Source: Collybiopsis luxurians FD-317 M1 (lineage: Eukaryota > Basidiomycota > Agaricomycetes > Agaricales > Omphalotaceae). Taken from it: a stretch of DNA of 64,000 bases. A model generated the notes under the pieces. The model did not search any database and was not told the DNA's origin. It saw only the letters and a list, made by a program, of their open reading frames with translations. Of this stretch, positions 4,044 through 64,000 are shown one piece after another. Where the stretch lies: contig KN834771.1 in NCBI GenBank assembly GCA_000827265.1, positions 25,585 to 89,584 of the forward strand, written 5' to 3'. The stretch's first letter is position 1, and each line of letters starts with the position of its first letter. Both the position numbers and the translations under genes were made by a program.

Positions 4044-7000
4044 TTATTCCTGGGCTCCACAAGTCTTTAAATACTGTATAATACTGTACTTGTGATTAGC
4101 AACTGCAGCTTTGAGTGCTGATCCATATTTCCCTCCTGGTATGCTGACATCTGCACCAGCTGCTATCAGGAAGTTTACAATATTCAAGCTCATTGTAGCG
4201 GATGCTTGCAACGCTGTTCCATATTCTCCTCCTTGTAGATTAACATCAGCACCATTTGATACCAGGAATTTGACAATGACCATATCCCAGTGTTTACACT
4301 GTGCTGCTGCTTGCAATGCTGTTCCATATTTCCCTCCTTGTACATTGACATCTGCCCCATTTGATACCAAGAATTCCACAATGTCTAGATGTCCATGACA
4401 TGCTGCTGCTTGCAGTGCTGTTTGATATTCTCCTCCCTGTACATTGACATTGGCACCATTTGATACCAGGATTTTGCCAATATCCAAATGTCCATGACAT
4501 GCTGCTGCTTGCAATGCTGTTCCATATTCCCCTCCTTGTACATTGACATCAGCCCCATTGGATACCAGGGATTTCACAATGTCCAGATGTCCATGATATG
4601 CTGCTGCTTGCAGTGCTGTTCCATACAATTGTCCTCCTTGTGAATTGACATCTGCCCCATTTGATACCAGGAATTCCACAATGTCCAAATGTCCATGACA
4701 TGCTGCTGCTTGCAGTGCTGTTCTATATTCTCCTCCCTGTACATTGACATTGGCACCATTTGATACCAGGAATTCAACAATATCCAAATGTTTGTGACAT
4801 GCTGCTGCTTGCAGTGCTGTTTCATACTGTCCTCCTTGTACATTGATATCTGCTCCATTTGATATCAGGAATGTCACAATATCCAAATGTCCATGACATG
4901 CTGCTGCTTGCAGTGCTATTCCATATTCTCCTCCCTGTACATTCACACTGGCACCATTTGATACCAGGAATTTGACAATATCCAATTGTTCATGACATGC
5001 TGCTGCTTGCAGTGCTGTTTCATATTGTCCTCCTTGTACATTGACATCTGCTCCATTTGATACCAGGAATTTCACAATGTCCAGATGTTCATGACATGCT
5101 GCTGCTTGCAGCGCTGTTCCATATTCTCCTCCTTGTCCATTTACATTGGCACCATTTAGTACCAGGAATTTGACCATATCCAAGTGTTTGTACTTTGCTG
5201 CTGCTTGCAATGCTGTTCCATATTTCCCTCCTTGAACATTGACATCTGCCTCACTTGATACCAGGAATTTGACAATATCCAAATGTCCATGACATGCTGC
5301 TGCTTGCAGTGCTGTTCCATATTCACCTCCCTGTAAATTCACATTAGCACCATTTGATACCAGGAATTTGATGATATCCCAGTGTCTATATTGTGCTGCT
5401 GCTTGCAATACTGTTCCACATTGTCCTCCTTGTACATTGACATCTGCTCCATTTGATACCAGGAATTTCACAATGTCCAGATGTCCATGACATGCTGCTG
5501 CTTGCAGTGCTGTTCCATACTGTCCTCCTTGTACATTCACATTTGCACCATTTGATACCAGGAATTTCACAATATCCCAGTGTCTATACTGTGCTGCTGT
5601 GTGCAAGGCTGTTCCATATTTTCCTCCATGTACATTGACATCTGTTCCACCTGATACCAGGAATTTCACAATGTTCAAATGTCCATGATATGCTGCTGCT
5701 TGCAGTGCTGTTCCATATTCTCCCCCTTGTACATTGACAACTGCCCCATTTGATACCAGGAATTTGACAACATCTAGATATTCTCGCCACTGGCATGCTG
5801 CTGCTTGCAGTGTTGTTTCATATTTCCCTCCTTGAACATTGACATCAGCCCCATTTGATACCAGGAATTTGGCAATGTCCAAATGTCCATGACATGCTGC
5901 TGCTTGCAGTGCTGTTCCATATTCTCCCCCTTGTACATTCACATTGGCCCCATTAGATACCAGGAATTTGACAATATCCAGGTGTTCATAGTGTGCAGCT
6001 GCTTGCAATGCTGTTCCATACTGTCCTCCTTGTACATTGACATCAGCACCATTTGACACCAGGAGTTCCACAATGTCCAGATGTTCATGACATACAGCTG
6101 CTTGCAGTGCTGTTTCATATTCTCCTCCCTGTAGATTCACATTGGCACCATTTGATACTAGGAATTTGACAATATCCAAGTGTTTGTACTGTGCTGCTGC
6201 TTGCAATGCTGTTCCATATCGTCCTCCTTGAACATTGACATCTGCCCCTTTCAATACCAGGAATTTCACAATGTCCAGATGTTCTTGCCACTGGCATGCT
6301 GCTGCTTGCAGTGCTGTTCCATATTTTTCTCCTAGTACATTGACATCTGCCCCATTTGACACCAGGAGCTCCACAATGTCCAGACGTCCATGACATACTG
6401 CTGCTTGCAGTGCTGTTTCATATTCTCCTCCCTGTAGATTCACATTGGCACCATTTGATATTAGGAATTTGACAATATCCAAGTGTTTGTACTGTACTGC
6501 TGCTTGCAATGCTGTTCCATATCGTCCTCCTTGAACATTGACATCTGCCCCCTTCAATACCAGGAATTTCACAATGTCCAGATGTTCTTTCCACTGGCAT
6601 GCTGCTGCTTGCAGTGCTGTTCCATATTTTTTTCCTAGTACATTGACATCTGCCCCATTCAATACCAAGAATTGCACAATGTTCATGTGTCCACAACTTG
6701 CTGCTCCTTGCAGTGCTGTCCCCCTTCCTTCTCCCAGTACTAGATTAATATCTGCACCATTTACTACTAGAAACTGAACAGCTTTAAGGTCTCCCTTTTC
6801 AGATGCTTTTTCATAAAGTACTTTGGCACATTCCTCCCTCCAGTCAATTGCAGAGTTCACTGCAATGCTACTTAGGAACTGAAACAATTCTGAATTACCA
6901 GTCCTTGCTACATTCAACAATGCTTGCTGAAAATTCTTCACTTTTGCTCCAAAGTTTACCAGAATCCTACAAATATCTATATGGCCTGATCGGAAAGTTT

Positions 7001-38596: not shown

Positions 38597-38940
38597 TACA
38601 GTGGCCGCAACGACAAAAAAGCAGACTGATAGCCTAGAGCTGGGAAAAGACTTTATAGATAAATTTGGCAGACATTAGAATAGCAGCCGTAGGTACAGAG
38701 AGGTCCTGAGGTGACGCATCTAGAGCGACGGATGGAAGTGACGCTATACTCGAGTATGCACTATCGGCACTACGTAGACTCCGGGCCTAATCTGGGTCTA
38801 AAAATTGAAACGACACGGGGGCACAGATTGACAGGAATCATGAGGGCGATAGGAAGGCGTACCTGAGGTTGAAATGAGGCTACAATGAGGTTATAATGAA
38901 GGTGGGCACGTTGCAAAGATACTCGCTGCTTCTGACCACC

Positions 38941-41900
38941 ATGGTCGCTTGCCTCATCCCCCCCAACCCAGACATCTCTGGCATAGGTGTGCGGACTGCT
39001 ATCTACGCACAGAACATACTCTGCTTCTTGTCCGTGGTTCTCAACCTTTGGGACGGAGAAGTGACGGTGGATGAAATGAAGGGAATAAAGGATCAATCAA
39101 TCGGCATGCTTGCCATTGCTTTCGCCATCCTCATCTCTACTATTGTCGAAACCAAAACTAAGACTGCTATCACAGGACAGTCAATTGATAGGTTTCATGC
39201 TGCCATTGTCCTTGACTTGAGCTGGATGAACAATACTAGCACATGGATATGGTTTCTTCTTTATGTGCATCACCGAACCAAAACCAATCATAATCGTATT
39301 GCCCCAACCTGGAGAGATTGGTGGGAGAAGGGTCTTTGTTTGCCTCTCAGACAGGCTTTCTTGGGAAGAGTGCAGAAAGAAGAAAGGGGCAGAAGGTTTG
39401 ATCAAACTTGGGCATTTATCTCCTGCCTTTGGGATCTGGTATCAGCTGCACCTGTCCTTACTATTGGTTCCATTCATCTCTCCCTCATGGCCAGTGTTGG
39501 AATCTGGCTTTGGCATGATCCATCTGTATTTGGTTCAACCCTACCCAACCAATGTGGTCTCAATGATCTCAAACTTACAATTGTTGGGAAATCTGTCCCA
39601 TTCTCATCTCAACCACTACGCATCTGGTCATTGATGGTGTATGGCCTATTACTTGTCCCTGGTCTTAACCTCATCCCTCCCTTTGCCTTTTTCCTCACTT
39701 TTCACATCTTCTACAATTGGACTTGGGACCACCACAAGTCATTCTGGGATAAGGCACTTGGCTATATTAGAAATAATTCAGCGAGGAATGGATATTCACA
39801 AGCCAGGTCAGATCTGGAGCTTGGAAGCATCCAGGAAACACAATCTGGGACACGCCCCAATGCCCATTTCATCCAATCCACCAGCCATGTGGCCATCCTT
39901 CTTGCTGGCTTAGCAGCTCTCATTTTTGTCAATGTCCTGTTTATTGCAGATATTGAAAAGACTCTTACAGATAACCAGGGCAATGAATCTACAGAAGAGG
40001 ATGAATGGGGGTTTGGACAGGTTCTTGCTCTGCTACTCTTGGTGTTGCCCTTACGAGATGCTTGGAATGCCTTCCAGGATATTCAAGAAAAGATGCTTGG
40101 AGTCCAGGAGCAATTTGAGCAATTATTCCAAGACAAAGCTAGGGCTGACTCAGGCATTTCTATGTTTAAAGAACTGATGAACAGGCATGCAGATCCTAGG
40201 AAGGAAATGAGAAAAGAGGATGAAGACAGTGGATGCAAGACATTTCTTCAACTGGCAGCGTATTATGGGAAGCAAGAACTGGTTGAATTTCTTCTTGATA
40301 TACCTCAAATGCCTTTGAATATTAGTAGTAAGACTTGAAAATACTGTTGCAAAGTAATTCTGACAAGTTTTCAGGTGGAACCTGTGGGACTGCCCTCCAA
40401 GTTGCTTCTGCAGAGGGGCATATGGGTGTTGTGCAGATGTTGCTTGATAGAGGGTCAGATCCTAACATCAAGGGTATTAGTGAGAACAGAATGGTGCTGC
40501 ACGGTAATTCTGATAATGTTTCAGGCAGTGGAAATTATGGGACTCCAATTCAAGCTGCCTATGCAAAGGGGCACATGAACATTGTGCAAATTTTGCTCAA
40601 TAAAGGGTCGGATCCTAATATCAAGGGTAGTAGTAAGAATTAAAGATACCACTGTGCAAAGTAATCCTGATAAGCTTTTAGATGAAACTTATGGGACTGC
40701 ACTTCAAGCTGCCTCTGCAAAGGGGCAGATGGGTATTGTGCAAATGTTGCTTGATAAAGGGTCAAATCCCAACATCAAGGGTAGTGAGAATAAAAAATAG
40801 GGTTGCAAAGTAATTCTGATAAATTTTCAGGTGGACCTTATGGGACTCCGATTCAAGCTGCCTATGACAATGGGAATTTGAACATTGTGCAAATATTGCT
40901 CAATAAAGGGTCAAATCCCAACATAAAAGGTAGTACTAGGAGTCAAAAATATTGTTGCAAAGTGATTCTGACAAGCTTTCAGATGAAATTTATGGGACTG
41001 CACTGCAAGCTGCCTCACTGAGGGGGCAGATAGACATTGTACAAATGTTGCTTGATGGAGGTTCAGATCCAAACATTGAGGGTAGTAGTAAGAGTTAAGA
41101 ATGTTTTTATCAAGTACTTCTGATATGTTTTCAGGTGGAATTTATGGAACTGCACTTCAAGCTGCCACTGCAAAGGGGAAAATGAACATTGTTCAAATGT
41201 TGCTCGATAAGGGTTCAGATCCTGATATCCAGGGTAGGCAACCATAGTATAAGAAAAGAGTGCAACAACTAATGGAAAAGTAGGAGGGGAATATGGGACA
41301 GCACTGTGTGCAGCCATAGCAAATGGGAGGTTGGATATCATGAATCTACTTCTGGAAAGGAATGCAAAGGTGGATGTTCAAGGTAAGAAAATGGTCATTT
41401 GACATCAATACATAGTGGAGGAAACTTCAATGATTTGATATTAGGACCACTGTTCGGAGCCCCACTTCATGTTGCTGGGCTAATGTACACAACAGACAAA
41501 GTCAGGTATACTGAAATAATCTCACAGCTGCTGGAAAAGTGGGGGCCAAGGGCAGATCCAATATGTGAGATACCAAAGAGTGAGGCAAGTCAAAGCCACT
41601 AATTAATATCTTTATGAATTAGGGTATCAATTTGGGAGAACCATTGATGTTGCATTTCTCAGGAGAAATGAAGAATTGGAGAAAATTTGTAGGGAGAAAG
41701 GACTCAAAAAAGTAAGCAGAACTATCATATATAGATTCAGCCGCTGACTGTGTTTTTCAATTACAGTATGTAAGGAGCACTTTACCACTGTCCTGTATGG
41801 GTTGAAGCACTAATGGGTTTTTCTCTGTTTATTACAACAGTATGTGAGTGGTGCCATGCTAACCATTTATGTTCCACAAAGCTGATAATAAGCTTTTTTT

Positions 41901-43571
41901 TCTCAAGTTGGTAAGTTGTGTCATGCTGCTCATGTATGTCCAAAGCACCTCAGCTAACAATGGGTTTTCTGTTTCTTAATTTTCTAGGATGTAAGTGGTG
42001 TCATGCCACTAATGTACAGTCCCCAAGGCTGATAATGGGTTGCTTAATTCAATTGAATAGGATGTAAGTAGTGCCATGCTGTTGATGTCTCCCAAGGCTG
42101 ATATACTCAACTGTTCAACAGGATGTAAGTGGTGGCATGCCACTGATGTGTATCCTGCAAGCAGGCTAACAATGGCATTGCTTTTTTCTACATTCAATTC
42201 TAGGATGTAAGTGGTAACATGTTATTAATATATGACATGTATTCTTCAAGACCAATGTTGGGTTTTCTTTCTTTTTGTCCAATAGATTGTAAGTGGTGCT
42301 AGGGTACTCATGTACATTCCTCAAAACAGTTTTTTTCTGTGCTCAATCCAACAGAGAGTAAGTAGCCATTCATGTAGCATGTCTCCCAAGGCTGAGCATC
42401 GGTCTTCTTTTTCTTGATTCCATAGTATGTAAGTGGCAATATGCAACTCATGTTTATTTTCCAAGGCTGAAAATGGGTTTTTCTTTTCTCAACTCAATAG
42501 CTGGTAAGTGCTGCCATTTTGCCCTTTGCCCCTGAAGGCTGCTGATGAGTTTTTTTTTTTCCTCAATGCAATAGTATGTAAGTGTGGCCATGCCACTCAT
42601 ATATGTCCCGCAAGGCTGATGATAGATTTGCTCTTGTTCAATTCAATAGGTTGTAAGTGGTACCATGCCATGTCCCACACAGCAAATACTAATGGGTTTC
42701 TTTTTCTCCACCCAATCATCAATAGGAAGTAAGCAGTACTACCATGCTGCTCATATGTGACCCCAGGCTGATGATGCATTCTATTTTTTGAATTCACTAG
42801 CAAGTAAGTAATGCCCTGCCACTCCCAGTGCATATCTCCCAAGGTTAATGACAGCTTTTCTTCTTCTTGATTCAACAGTATGTAAGTAGTATCACACCAT
42901 ACATGGACCACAAGGCTGATGATGGCCTTTGTTCTCTCAATTTAATAGTGGGTAAGAACCTTGAGGTGCGGCATGTATATTGTCCAAGGCTAATGATGAA
43001 TTTGTTTATCAATGCAATAGCAAGTAAGTGGAGCCAAGCCATGTGAGTATGTTCCCCAAGGCTGATAATAGGTTCTCTTTTTCTGAATCCAACAGCAAGT
43101 AAGTGGAGCTGTGCCACTCATGTATGCTCCCCACAGCTCATGATGGGTTTTTTTTTGATTAATTTAATAGGAAGTAAGTAGTGCCAAGTCACTGGTGTAG
43201 CCTCACTTATGATAATGGGCTTTTCTTGTCTCTCAAATAGATAGTAAGCAGTACTAAGCCACTCCTGTTCTTTTCCTTTCCAATACTAAAAGTCTTTCTC
43301 AAACAACCAGGAAGTCAGTGATACCATCACCTATACCTCCACACTGCCAATACTGGTACTAATCAGTCATTTCTTTTTTCAAATTTCCTAGCGTGTAAGT
43401 CTTACTGCATTCATGTGACAAGCAACCTGTTGTTACTGTTTTCCTTTTTGCCTGCAAAATGAATAGCGTGTAAGTGACCACTGACCTTTTGACATATAAC
43501 ACATGCCTTTATACAAGTTGTTCTAGTTCCAACACCTTCAAGGCCTTGTGCAAAGAGACAGTGCACCCTAA
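38941..43571 (+). CDS. Gene A: multi-pass membrane ankyrin protein with 24 single-codon exons
   Basis: Model of 35 exons totalling 2,433 nt (810 residues). Exon 1 (38941-40327) encodes a Basidiomycota-type membrane region: PPNPDISGIGVRTAIYAQN, SIGMLAIAFAILISTIV, LDLSWMNNTSTWIWFLLYV, PVLTIGSIHLSLMASVGIW, LLLVPGLNLIPPFAFFLTF, VAILLAGLAALIFVNVLFI and LLLLVLPLRDAWNAF. Ankyrin exons, one repeat each and all starting and ending in phase 1: 40375-40473, 40525-40626, 40682-40780, 40831-40929, 40983-41081, 41135-41233, 41284-41382. Then 41421-41564 (GAPLHVAGLM) and 41623-41711 (ending EKGLKK). Next come 24 exons of exactly 3 nt (see the repeat entry) and a last exon 43527-43571 ending in TAA. The frame closes exactly if all microexons are included. 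Start Met 38941 is chosen because TTM is conserved in gene B; 38896 is an in-frame alternative. Function is unknown; receptor-like recognition is inference. Confidence 0.75.
41712..43526 (+). repeat. Array of 24 three-nucleotide exons in repeated introns (gene A)
   Basis: Single-codon exons, by first base: 41767 TAT, 41841 TAT, 41908 TTG, 41988 GAT, 42061 GAT, 42122 GAT, 42204 GAT, 42286 ATT, 42355 AGA, 42426 TAT, 42501 CTG, 42575 TAT, 42650 GTT, 42726 GAA, 42801 CAA, 42879 TAT, 42949 TGG, 43021 CAA, 43096 CAA, 43171 GAA, 43241 ATA, 43311 GAA, 43392 CGT, 43467 CGT. Eighteen of the 24 donors are exactly GTAAGT; the others are GTAAGG, GTGAGT, GTAAGC (twice), GTAAGA and GTCAGT. Acceptors are YAG except CTCAAG at 41907. 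Introns are 57-79 nt, homologous to each other, with a gtgccatgcc block, a caaggctgat or ggctaacaatgg block containing a CTRAY-type branch site, and a T-rich tract. None of the codons is a stop. Confidence 0.85.
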
Positions 43572-61547: not shown

Positions 61548-64000
61548 ATGACCACTAACTGCACCTCAACCACTAGCTGCATCCCCCCTAACCCAGACAT
61601 CTCTGGCATAGGTGTCCGAACGGCTATCTATGCACAGAACATATTTTGCTTCTTCCCGGTTGCTCTTAACCTTTGGGATAACAGAGTGACGGCTGAGGAG
61701 ATGAAAGGCATAAAGGATCAATCTATTGGCATGCTTGCCATTGCTTTTGCCATCCTTGTCTCTACTATTACCGAAGCCAAGACTAAATCCACTATAACAG
61801 GGCAGTCTATGGATGAATTTCATACAGCTATTATCCTTGACTTGAGCTGGATGAATAATACCAGTACTTGGATATGGTTTCTTCTCTATGTTCACCACCG
61901 AACTAGGGCTGAGACCAATAGTGAGCGCATTTGCCCAACCTGGAGTGATTGGTGGAAGAAAGGTCTTCGGTCACCGCTCAGTCAGGTTTTCAAAAGAATG
62001 CAGAAAGAGGAGAGGAAAAGAAGGAAACAAACTTGGGCCGGGGCATTGATCTCCTGCCTCTGGAATATTATATCAGCTGCACCTGTCCTTACCATTGGTT
62101 CCATCCATCTCTCCCTTATGGCCAGCATTGGGATCTGGCTTTGGCAAAAACCATCTGGATTTGGCCCACCCCCACCCCCAGACATCCCCTGTAATCTCAC
62201 ACTTACAATCCTTGGAAAATCCATCCCATTCTCATCTCAGCTGCTAAAGATCATTTCATTGATAATATATGCCCTTTTTCTTTTTCCTGGCCTTAACCTC
62301 ATTCTCCCCTTTGGCTTTTTCCTCACTTTTCACATCCTGTACAACTGGTCTCGAGTTCACCACAAGTCATTCTGGGACCCATGGGATTCATTCTGGAAAA
62401 AATGTCGACAGTGTGGTCTAGCATTTCGCCATATGATAAATCCACAGGGCCATCCAGATGCAGAGCAGGGAAGTGAGCAGGGAGGACAGCCCCACTCGGA
62501 AATAGAGGATGGAAGAATGCAAGAATCACAATCCAGTCAGAACCATACTAACCAATCTCCAGGCCATGTAGCCATTCTTTATGCCAGCTTAATTGCTCTT
62601 ATTTTTGTCAATGTTCAGTTTATTGCTGATATTGAACAGACACTCATACGTAATGAAGGTAATGGTTCTACAGAAGAGGATAAATGGGGTTTTGGGCAGG
62701 TTCTTCCTCTAATACTCTTGATCTTGCCACTACGAGATGCTTGGAATGCCTTTCAAGATATCCGACAGGGAGTACAGGGGCGATTTGAGCAGTTAATCCT
62801 AGCCAAGGCTAAAGATGACTCAGGCATTCCAGAACTTCAACAGCTGGTTAAACAACAAGCCAGGCTTGAAGTAGACATGACAAATAATAATGAGGGATGC
62901 AGCACATTGCTCCAGCTGGTTGCATACCATGGGAAACAAGAATTGGTTGCATTCCTTCTAGATAATGGTGTGCTCCCAAATGATACTGGTAGGATTTAAA
63001 AACACTCTTGTAAAGTATTTCTGATTATTTTTCAGGAGGTGGTTTTGGGACTGCACTTCAAGCTGCCTGTGCAAAGGGGCATATCAACATGGTGAAAATG
63101 CTGCTGGATGGAGGATCAGATCCCAACATCCAAGGTAGGCTATTATACTGACTGAAGGAATGCAACTGCTGATATGAGAGTAGGAGGGCACTATGGATCA
63201 GCACTGTGTGCAGCCATAGCAAATGGGAGGGAAGACATAATAAATTTGCTCCTGGAAAGGGATGCAAAGGTGAATATTCCAGGTGAGGAAGGGGACATTA
63301 GACATTGAGACATATAGGAGAGGATACACTGATATCATTCAAGGGGAAATGTTTGGAGCCCCCCTTCATGTTGCTGGGCTGATGCACATCATAGATGATG
63401 AGAAGTATGGTGCAATAATCAAGAAGCTGTTGGAAAAGGAGCCAGGAACAAATCCTCAATGTAAGGTGGCAGAGGGTCAAGCGAGTCAAGCCACTAACAG
63501 TATAAATCAGGGGATACATTTGGAGGAATTGCTGATATTGCAATTATCAGAAAGGATGAAAAATTAGTGGAGCTTTGTCAGGAAAAAGAACTCAAAAGAG
63601 TGAGTAGGACTGTCTTATATTTAAATATAGTTGCTCAGAGTGTGTTTTAAATGCTGATTGAACAGCATGTAAGAGTCATTATGCTGATACCACACAGATG
63701 GCTGGAATTACTAACAAGGTTGCTTGTTCTCAATTCAATAGCTTGTAAGTAGTGCCATGCCCCCCATGTATGTCCCCTAAGGCTGACAATTTTTCTCCAT
63801 TGAATAGAAAGTAAGTGGTGCCATGCCCATTATGTATGTCCCCCAAGGCTGACAGTGGGTGTTCTTTTTCTCAATTCAATAGCCAGTAAGTGGTGCCATG
63901 CCCCTCATGTATGTCCCCCAAGGCTGACAATGGGTTTTCTTTTTCTCAATTCAATAGCGAGTAAGTGGTGCCGTGCCCCTCATGTATGTCCCCCCAAGGC
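61548..64000 (+). CDS. Gene B: paralogue of gene A with single-codon exon array, runs off window
   Basis: Exon 1 (61548-62988) matches gene A over its whole length: SCIPPNPDISGIGVRTAIYA, SIGMLAIAFAILVSTITEAK, LDLSWMNNTSTWIWFLLYVH, PLRDAWNAFQDI, TLLQLVAYHGKQELVAFLLD. Ankyrin exons 63036-63134 and 63184-63282 (99 nt each, phase 1), then 63323-63460 (GAPLHVAGLM) and 63511-63599 (TFGGIADIAIIRK, ending EKELKR). Single-codon exons follow at 63666 CAT, 63742 CTT, 63808 AAA, 63883 CCA and 63958 CGA; the donor after the last opens an intron still running at 64000. Gene B has two whole-repeat ankyrin exons where gene A has seven. The 3' end lies outside the window. ATG 61518 is an in-frame alternative start. 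Confidence 0.75.
63600..64000 (+). repeat. Array of single-codon exons in near-identical introns (gene B, incomplete)
   Basis: Five 3-nt exons are visible. The last complete introns (63811-63882 and 63886-63957, 72 nt each) are nearly identical to each other and to the start of the next one (63961-64000). They share gtaagtggtgccatgccc, catgtatgtcccccaaggct, a gacaatggg branch region and ttctcaattcaatag. The exonic codons between them differ completely (AAA, CCA, CGA). Donors are GTAAGA then GTAAGT (four times); acceptors are AACAG or AATAG. The unit period is 75 bp. Confidence 0.85.

Follow-up and report, generated by a model that had tools for sequence, protein, structure and literature searches.

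We analysed a 64,000-nucleotide (nt) stretch of the genome of Collybiopsis luxurians FD-317 M1, a fungus termed litter-decomposing in the title of a paper; the whole stretch is referred to below as the window, and coordinates are those of the stretch. Its forward strand carries a gene for an ankyrin-repeat protein in which 24 consecutive islands of three nucleotides each lie between an acceptor and a donor site. Assembled by hand, the gene model comprises 35 exons and 824 codons (coding sequence of 2475 nt), has no internal stop and closes with a TAA in the exon at 43527–43571. The model and a splice-chain search together bear out an earlier note on this DNA, which had described 24 one-codon exons in a 35-exon gene ending on a stop.

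The window gene and its array

Exon 1 (38896–40327, plus strand, as are all exons of this gene) encodes the N-terminal part of the protein, with hydrophobic stretches as a putative transmembrane part; its donor is ambiguous in 3-nt steps, and the choice leaves the frame unaffected. The first reading frame spans 480 codons. Among the 120 of 280 matches listed (8000 candidates scored), its homologues in named species come from the agaric fungi Mycena, Collybiopsis, Tephrocybe and Gymnopilus. Exons 2–9, within 40375–41564 (40375–40479, 40525–40632, 40682–40783, 40831–40929, 40983–41087, 41135–41233, 41284–41382 and 41445–41564), hold about one ankyrin repeat each and are separated by phase-1 introns. 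Exon 10 (41623–41711) is the final long exon upstream of the array and ends in phase 0. Searched whole, the 824-residue protein matches Pfam Ank with E = 1.3e-45 and has no Pfam match to NACHT at E ≤ 0.001. The order along the protein is the first frame with its hydrophobic stretches, then the ankyrin repeats, then the array, whose peptide YYLDDDDIRYLYVEQYWQQEIERR runs into the FQHLQGLVQRDSAP of the last exon (43527–43571), which is followed by the TAA.

The array (41712–43526, plus strand) consists of 25 introns of 55–79 nt and 24 three-nt exons; the earlier note gave a range of 57–79 nt for the introns. Given equal weight for every exon length between 0 and 40 nt, the splice-chain search returned 3 nt for 24 of 24 islands, consecutive from 41767 to 43469. 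A stricter earlier run had fused one unit into a 28-nt exon. The microexons, all on the plus strand, are TAT (Y) at 41767–41769 and 41841–41843; TTG (L), with an AAG acceptor, at 41908–41910; GAT (D) at 41988–41990, 42061–42063, 42122–42124 and 42204–42206; ATT (I) at 42286–42288; AGA (R) at 42355–42357; TAT (Y) at 42426–42428; CTG (L) at 42501–42503; TAT (Y) at 42575–42577; GTT (V) at 42650–42652; GAA (E) at 42726–42728; CAA (Q) at 42801–42803; TAT (Y) at 42879–42881; TGG (W) at 42949–42951; CAA (Q) at 43021–43023 and 43096–43098; GAA (E) at 43171–43173; ATA (I) at 43241–43243; GAA (E), with the donor GTCAGT, at 43311–43313; and CGT (R) at 43392–43394 and 43467–43469. Together they make up 72 of the 2475 nt of the coding sequence.

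Three-nucleotide islands across the genome

The 64.3-Mb genome was searched for intron–N(k)–intron junctions with the pattern GTRAGT-N40-70-YAG-N(k)-GTRAGT, and the reversed pattern served as control. Between k = 1 and k = 6, the sole spacing above its control was k = 3, with 380 junctions versus 69; the counts elsewhere were 54 versus 86 (k = 1), 48 versus 84 (k = 2), 55 versus 96 (k = 4), 46 versus 87 (k = 5) and 54 versus 103 (k = 6). This genome-wide spectrum of island lengths, with 380 at k = 3 and 46–55 at the other spacings, led us to reject chance splice sites as an explanation. The pattern recovers 203 of 438 curated islands, so that by extrapolation about 700 single-codon exons may exist genome-wide.

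We read 18 array loci, the window included, and analysed 21 array segments (C and L labels below, respectively). Further matching places lie outside these loci, including C23:248k, C23:329k, C28:438k, C61 and C94:69k. By choice of segment, the counts do not cover the N-terminal exons, the inserts of L045 and L046, the final stretch of L045, the remnant L038 or some of the first units. Introns of the window type occur at six loci (the window array, C23:89k, C23:119k, C57, C46 and C119); the C57 array is broken by Ns and is possibly two arrays. Allowing 0 or 1 mismatch, 29 of 30 matches to the window-type unit fall in the array regions at C23, C46 and C57, and one at the C119 array. Among the matches listed, scattered ones start at 2 mismatches; matches number 122 in total versus 57 for the control pattern. 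The N-terminal exon of the window gene has 25 matches in the genome, in places several per gene.

One relative lies in the window itself. This second gene of the same family (61548–64000, plus strand; start read by eye) has its last long exon ending at 63599 and its array within the window at 63666–63960 (plus strand; CAT at 63666, CTT at 63742, AAA at 63808, CCA at 63883 and CGA at 63958). The gene is cut by the end of the window, and its array (L031) enters a long stretch of Ns right beyond. Elsewhere in the window, 4203–6719 on the minus strand holds a 99-nt unit, ankyrin-repeat-like by eye, in about 25 tandem copies.

A different intron type was found at the other 12 loci (C7, C12, C16, C19, six on C21, C69 and C94); the array at C69 (L053) holds 58 three-nt islands in 4.4 kb. 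Upstream of 10 of these 12 arrays, C69 and C94 being excluded, lies a second gene family, here called family B, as judged by eye from the upstream exons. The 250-residue N-terminus of one family-B copy has no Pfam match at E ≤ 0.1, NACHT and Ank included, and a search for relatives of family B returned only six proteins, all from C. luxurians. BLASTP of one ankyrin-family protein against two family-B proteins gave no significant match (best E 0.15), and introns of the two types have a similarity of 0.623 versus 0.612 for shuffled letters. Near the family-B N-terminal exons of L046, L049 and L050–L052 sits an apparently conserved 2-nt exon (GC, GG or GT), which supplies the rest of a split codon. 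In the list of k = 1 junctions, C23:217461 and C23:246427 have opposite-strand sequence that resembles family-B introns by eye, and more arrays may lie on that contig.

In the 21 segments, the splice-chain search found 438 three-nt islands and 26 of other length (four of 0 nt, six of 1 nt, two of 2 nt, three of 5 nt, seven of 6 nt, two of 9 nt and one each of 12 and 13 nt), some of the latter being visible misparses. The earlier note's claim that an island is never 2 or 4 nt long is good for the window array, but some of the related arrays do contain islands of 0, 1, 5, 6 and 9 nt. Only one of the 438 islands is a stop, a TAG in L053, where the sequence AGTAG permits an alternative acceptor and the paralogue carries TCA; TAA and TGA are absent. 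Base composition predicts 31.7 stops, and shuffling codon positions 1, 2 and 3 within arrays predicts 21.9, 27.8 and 15.1, respectively. The fewest stops in any shuffle was 6 (5000 shuffles per codon position), and the single stop observed was never reached. For TAA and TGA only, none was observed versus 14.0, 7.7 and 12.2 in the shuffles, which never reached zero. Among 335 control triplets that follow an internal YAG within these introns, 13 were stops. No stop occurred among the 338 islands of the first set of segments, whose choice predates the reading of L053 and L054. Of 18 islands that begin with TA, 17 end in T, whereas 64 of the 155 that begin with AA, CA or GA end in A or G; TGG occurs in 39 islands and TGA in none. 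As a separate observation, C is the third base in 1.5% of 338 single-codon exons, perhaps owing to a donor-site constraint.

Regular islands were also found where the introns no longer resemble each other. At C12, intron similarity is 0.639 versus 0.628 for shuffled letters, yet the curated segment still has 39 islands out of 39 that are 3 nt long, none of them a stop (in a wider segment, 42 islands measure 3 nt and 2 measure 0 nt). Beyond the arrays, the exon that follows is read in an unchanged frame to the same stop in the four ankyrin-family copies readable there, with the peptides FQHLQGLVQRDSAP (window gene), CQLLQQLVHRDSTL (L033), FQYLQQLVQRDSTP (L035) and YQLLQQLVHRDSTL (L041, the C119 copy). 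The earlier note had proposed selection on the reading frame, and the proposal is supported by the length spectrum that exceeds its control at 3 nt alone, by one stop where shuffled means are 15–28, by C12 and by the post-array exon. Given their spacing, the scarcity of stops and codons that vary more than the introns around them (see below), the islands behave as translated codons.

We weighed this against a non-coding satellite, intronic or 3′, that has a mere splice consensus and whose 1.8 kb would be removed whole or never transcribed. Skipping all of 41712–43526 keeps the frame and leaves a protein with an unchanged last exon, the six nearest annotated family-B proteins do not seem to extend into any array, and the C46 array (L037) lies downstream of sequence that seems unrelated by eye, with no match to the N-terminal exon nearby; all three would be in keeping with a satellite. 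We nevertheless consider it quite improbable, since it does not lead one to expect a single stop in 438 islands, with 13 in 335 among control triplets of the same introns, or an excess over the control at 3 nt only. Arrays with unrelated introns behave alike, and at C12 the chain of acceptor, 3-nt island and donor is still kept with introns at the shuffled-letter level.

Codon and intron divergence

Codons and introns were compared between units of the same array. In five young arrays (L031, 3 units; L033, 6; L035, 9; L036, 7; L049, 5), the mean pairwise difference was 0.62–0.80 for codons and 0.08–0.13 for introns, and none of 343 three-column intron windows was as variable as the codons. The gap is narrower in the older arrays (the window array, L046, L044 and L045), with 1 of 70 intron windows as variable as the codons in the window array, and it is gone at C12, where 37 of 54 are as variable. 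Introns of L031, L033 and L035 are 0.913, 0.925 and 0.900 alike within the array versus 0.761–0.892 to other loci; for the window array the values are 0.726 within and 0.760–0.773 to other arrays.

In the first 19 segments, identical codons stand side by side more often than in shuffles (40 versus 21.8, standard deviation 4.3, maximum of 2000 shuffles 36), which is the trace expected of single-unit duplication. A block duplication in L044 suggested by eye (SFSEIK/SFSEIR) was rejected as unsupported by the introns, which are on average about as similar at lag 6 as at the remaining lags. Among recent paralogues on C21, a GAT in L050 corresponds to a 0-nt island in L051 and L052, a 6-nt island to one of 9 nt, and L051 and L052 have a 1-nt island followed by one of 5 nt. 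L050 is without a block found in the other two, so unit number differs as well, and it has lost the acceptors of two units. The differences among these three paralogues are frame-neutral events. Taken together, the pattern suits a process in which units would be duplicated locally, introns homogenised and codons kept distinct by selection.

Tests for purifying selection on codons were negative in L053/L054 (33 pairs: 18 identical, 0 synonymous and 15 nonsynonymous, the TAG included) and in L051/L052 (22 pairs: 16 identical, 5 nonsynonymous and 1 synonymous). Because third-base C is nearly absent, which limits synonymous changes, such counts are not proof of positive selection; nor is it proven by the variable codons in uniform introns, as the codons of L053/L054 diverge at the rate of the introns. 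The other eight paralogue comparisons, with 4–16 units each, are weaker; the most conspicuous of them is L033/L041, with introns 0.901 and codons 0.583 alike (8 codon pairs).

These data also bear on an invasion by introners, in which one young mobile intron copy would have been inserted per codon into an old continuous coding stretch. Invasion would account directly for introns that are 87–92% alike and flank unrelated codons in the young arrays, and a codon split into 1 + 5 nt in L051 and L052 is in line with it; introner-like elements are known in fungi (PMC4457414). As a simple model, random insertion predicts mixed exon lengths and phases and is ruled out by a length and phase that are nearly fixed, at 3 nt almost throughout. 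The introns of L031, L033 and L035, closer within the array than to other loci, point instead to local duplication (the window array differs in this), and unit number varies among recent paralogues (L050 versus L051 and L052). No uninterrupted homologue was found in a search that left the genomes of related fungi outside its scope. Near-identical introns scattered in unrelated genes, by which introner-like elements are recognised, were not found for the window intron type, the only type tested. We regard introner invasion as unlikely.

Proposed mechanism and parallels

In our favoured reading, which we hold to be probable, the 24 islands are real one-codon coding exons that would form a fast-changing, length-variable tail and whose units would turn over without frameshift. 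The 3-nt geometry, the conserved frame and stop and the avoidance of stops are read from the sequence, and from it we infer the order of splicing and the joining of codons. Each short intron, one of a set of related copies of about 70 nt, would be recognised alone, in an intron-defined manner, and the introns would be removed one after another, because a microexon leaves too little room for its acceptor and donor to be occupied together. Once joined, the codons would extend the protein beyond its ankyrin repeats by a charged tail rich in aromatic residues. With an intron plus a codon as the repeat unit, unequal exchange between similar introns could insert, remove or relocate codons one at a time and leave the frame intact, and skipping any subset of microexons would also be in frame.

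Beyond the in-frame skip and the annotated family-B proteins discussed above, several observations weigh against one-codon coding exons. The introns of the window array have not been homogenised (diversity 0.43), and introns flanking identical neighbouring codons resemble each other hardly more than other introns do, if at all (similarity higher in 7 and lower in 4 of the 11 segments that have both kinds, mostly by less than 0.06). Identity between L053 and L054 is 79.8% for codons and 79.1% for introns, with no purifying selection on amino acids visible there. L053 has the TAG island, and L053 and L054 (the latter at C94) share a 1-nt island, G, for which the downstream islands in L053 do not compensate. 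The TAG unit and the 1-nt unit must either be skipped or belong to decaying genes; the 1-nt island is probably a skipped unit. In the C119 copy (L041), the N-terminal exon contains 5 stops but the 8 three-nt islands none, so that a single array on its own says little.

Some of these points would suit genes in decay, whose arrays coded once and whose regularity is inherited in many copies now broken. The stops in exon 1 of the C119 copy, the lost acceptors of L050, the orphaned appearance of L037 and the long inserted sequence that interrupts L045 and L046 are what decay would leave behind. General decay is nonetheless very unlikely in our judgement: the window gene model is intact across 35 exons, stops have not built up in the arrays read, one ambiguous TAG excepted, and at C12 island length is unchanged with introns diverged to the shuffled level.

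One-codon coding exons in series are not categorically new. The earlier note knew of no tandem array, which was wrong, since NACHT-ankyrin (nank) genes of the black truffle Tuber melanosporum are reported to have codon-sized microexons, and we dropped the idea of an array without precedent in view of the reports on them. Tuber is an ascomycete, and the original report of its nank microexons is said to be that of Iotti et al. (2012). In three later papers, the nank genes or NLR sensor domains are described as diversifying via alternative splicing of 3-bp microexons (PMC3689799, PMC4986451, PMC10197012). As in Tuber, the C. luxurians genes form an expanded paralogous fungal family with tens of tandem 3-bp microexons (24 in the window gene and 58 in L053, here from genomic sequence), and diversification is the role described there and proposed here. 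Ankyrin repeats are present in the window gene and absent from the family-B N-terminus. Unlike the Tuber genes, those studied here belong to a basidiomycete and have no NACHT match, and the window protein has a hydrophobic N-terminal part; alternative splicing is reported for nank and may occur here. The C. luxurians genes are a new variant akin to the codon-sized microexon genes of Tuber and outside the nank family.

Other systems share single features. MEG genes are defined by having most of their coding sequence in short symmetric exons, which is not the case in the window gene, where microexons are so small a share. In Schistosoma MEG genes, short and for the most part frame-neutral exons follow one another and are discussed as generating protein variation; they are mostly 15 bp long, with a range of 6–81 bp (3–81 bp in the abstract), and the introns measure from 100 bp to nearly 5000 bp (PMC10526429). 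Here, in contrast, each exon is one codon, the introns are short and related, and only part of the protein is involved. Aphid bicycle and megacycle genes likewise evolve fast and have many small exons, nearly all of one phase, but their internal exons are in phase 2 rather than phase 0, and single-codon exons are unmentioned in the sections drawn on (PMC9168663). The Podospora HET/HNWD WD40 receptors resemble these arrays in having repeats under concerted evolution, with specific codons under diversifying selection there (PMC4986451); their repeat is a protein module, whereas here it is nearly all intron plus one codon. Reported spliced ultra-short exons, of 1 nt in Arabidopsis APC11 (PMC4674806) and Fusarium CYP621A (PMC12940212) and of 3 bp in Drosophila hth (PMC7392893), are single, unlike the arrays of C. 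luxurians.

To judge by the ankyrin repeats and the parallel with the truffle, the most likely purpose of the arrays would be rapid diversification of a recognition or interaction part of receptor-like proteins. This would proceed by unit turnover in DNA and probably by alternative splicing too, as reported for the truffle NACHT-ankyrin genes. More tentatively, and as a possibility we do not favour outright, the arrays may be a basidiomycete 'peptide-writing' device of intron plus codon that is independent of the truffle one, with homogenised, recombining introns, selection for differing codons and perhaps combinatorial splicing into many receptor tails, in at least two unrelated families and about 700 exons.

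That the six nearest annotated family-B proteins seem not to enter the arrays suggests that standard annotation misses such exons, and the avoidance of stops over arrays offers a simple genomic test for any fungal genome. The arrays are also natural test material for how the spliceosome handles dozens of consecutive 3-nt exons. With these genes, codon-sized microexon arrays are no longer confined to one truffle gene family: they extend to a mushroom, and to genes that lack a recognisable NACHT domain. This suggests that a device of this kind for altering recognition proteins recurs among fungi.

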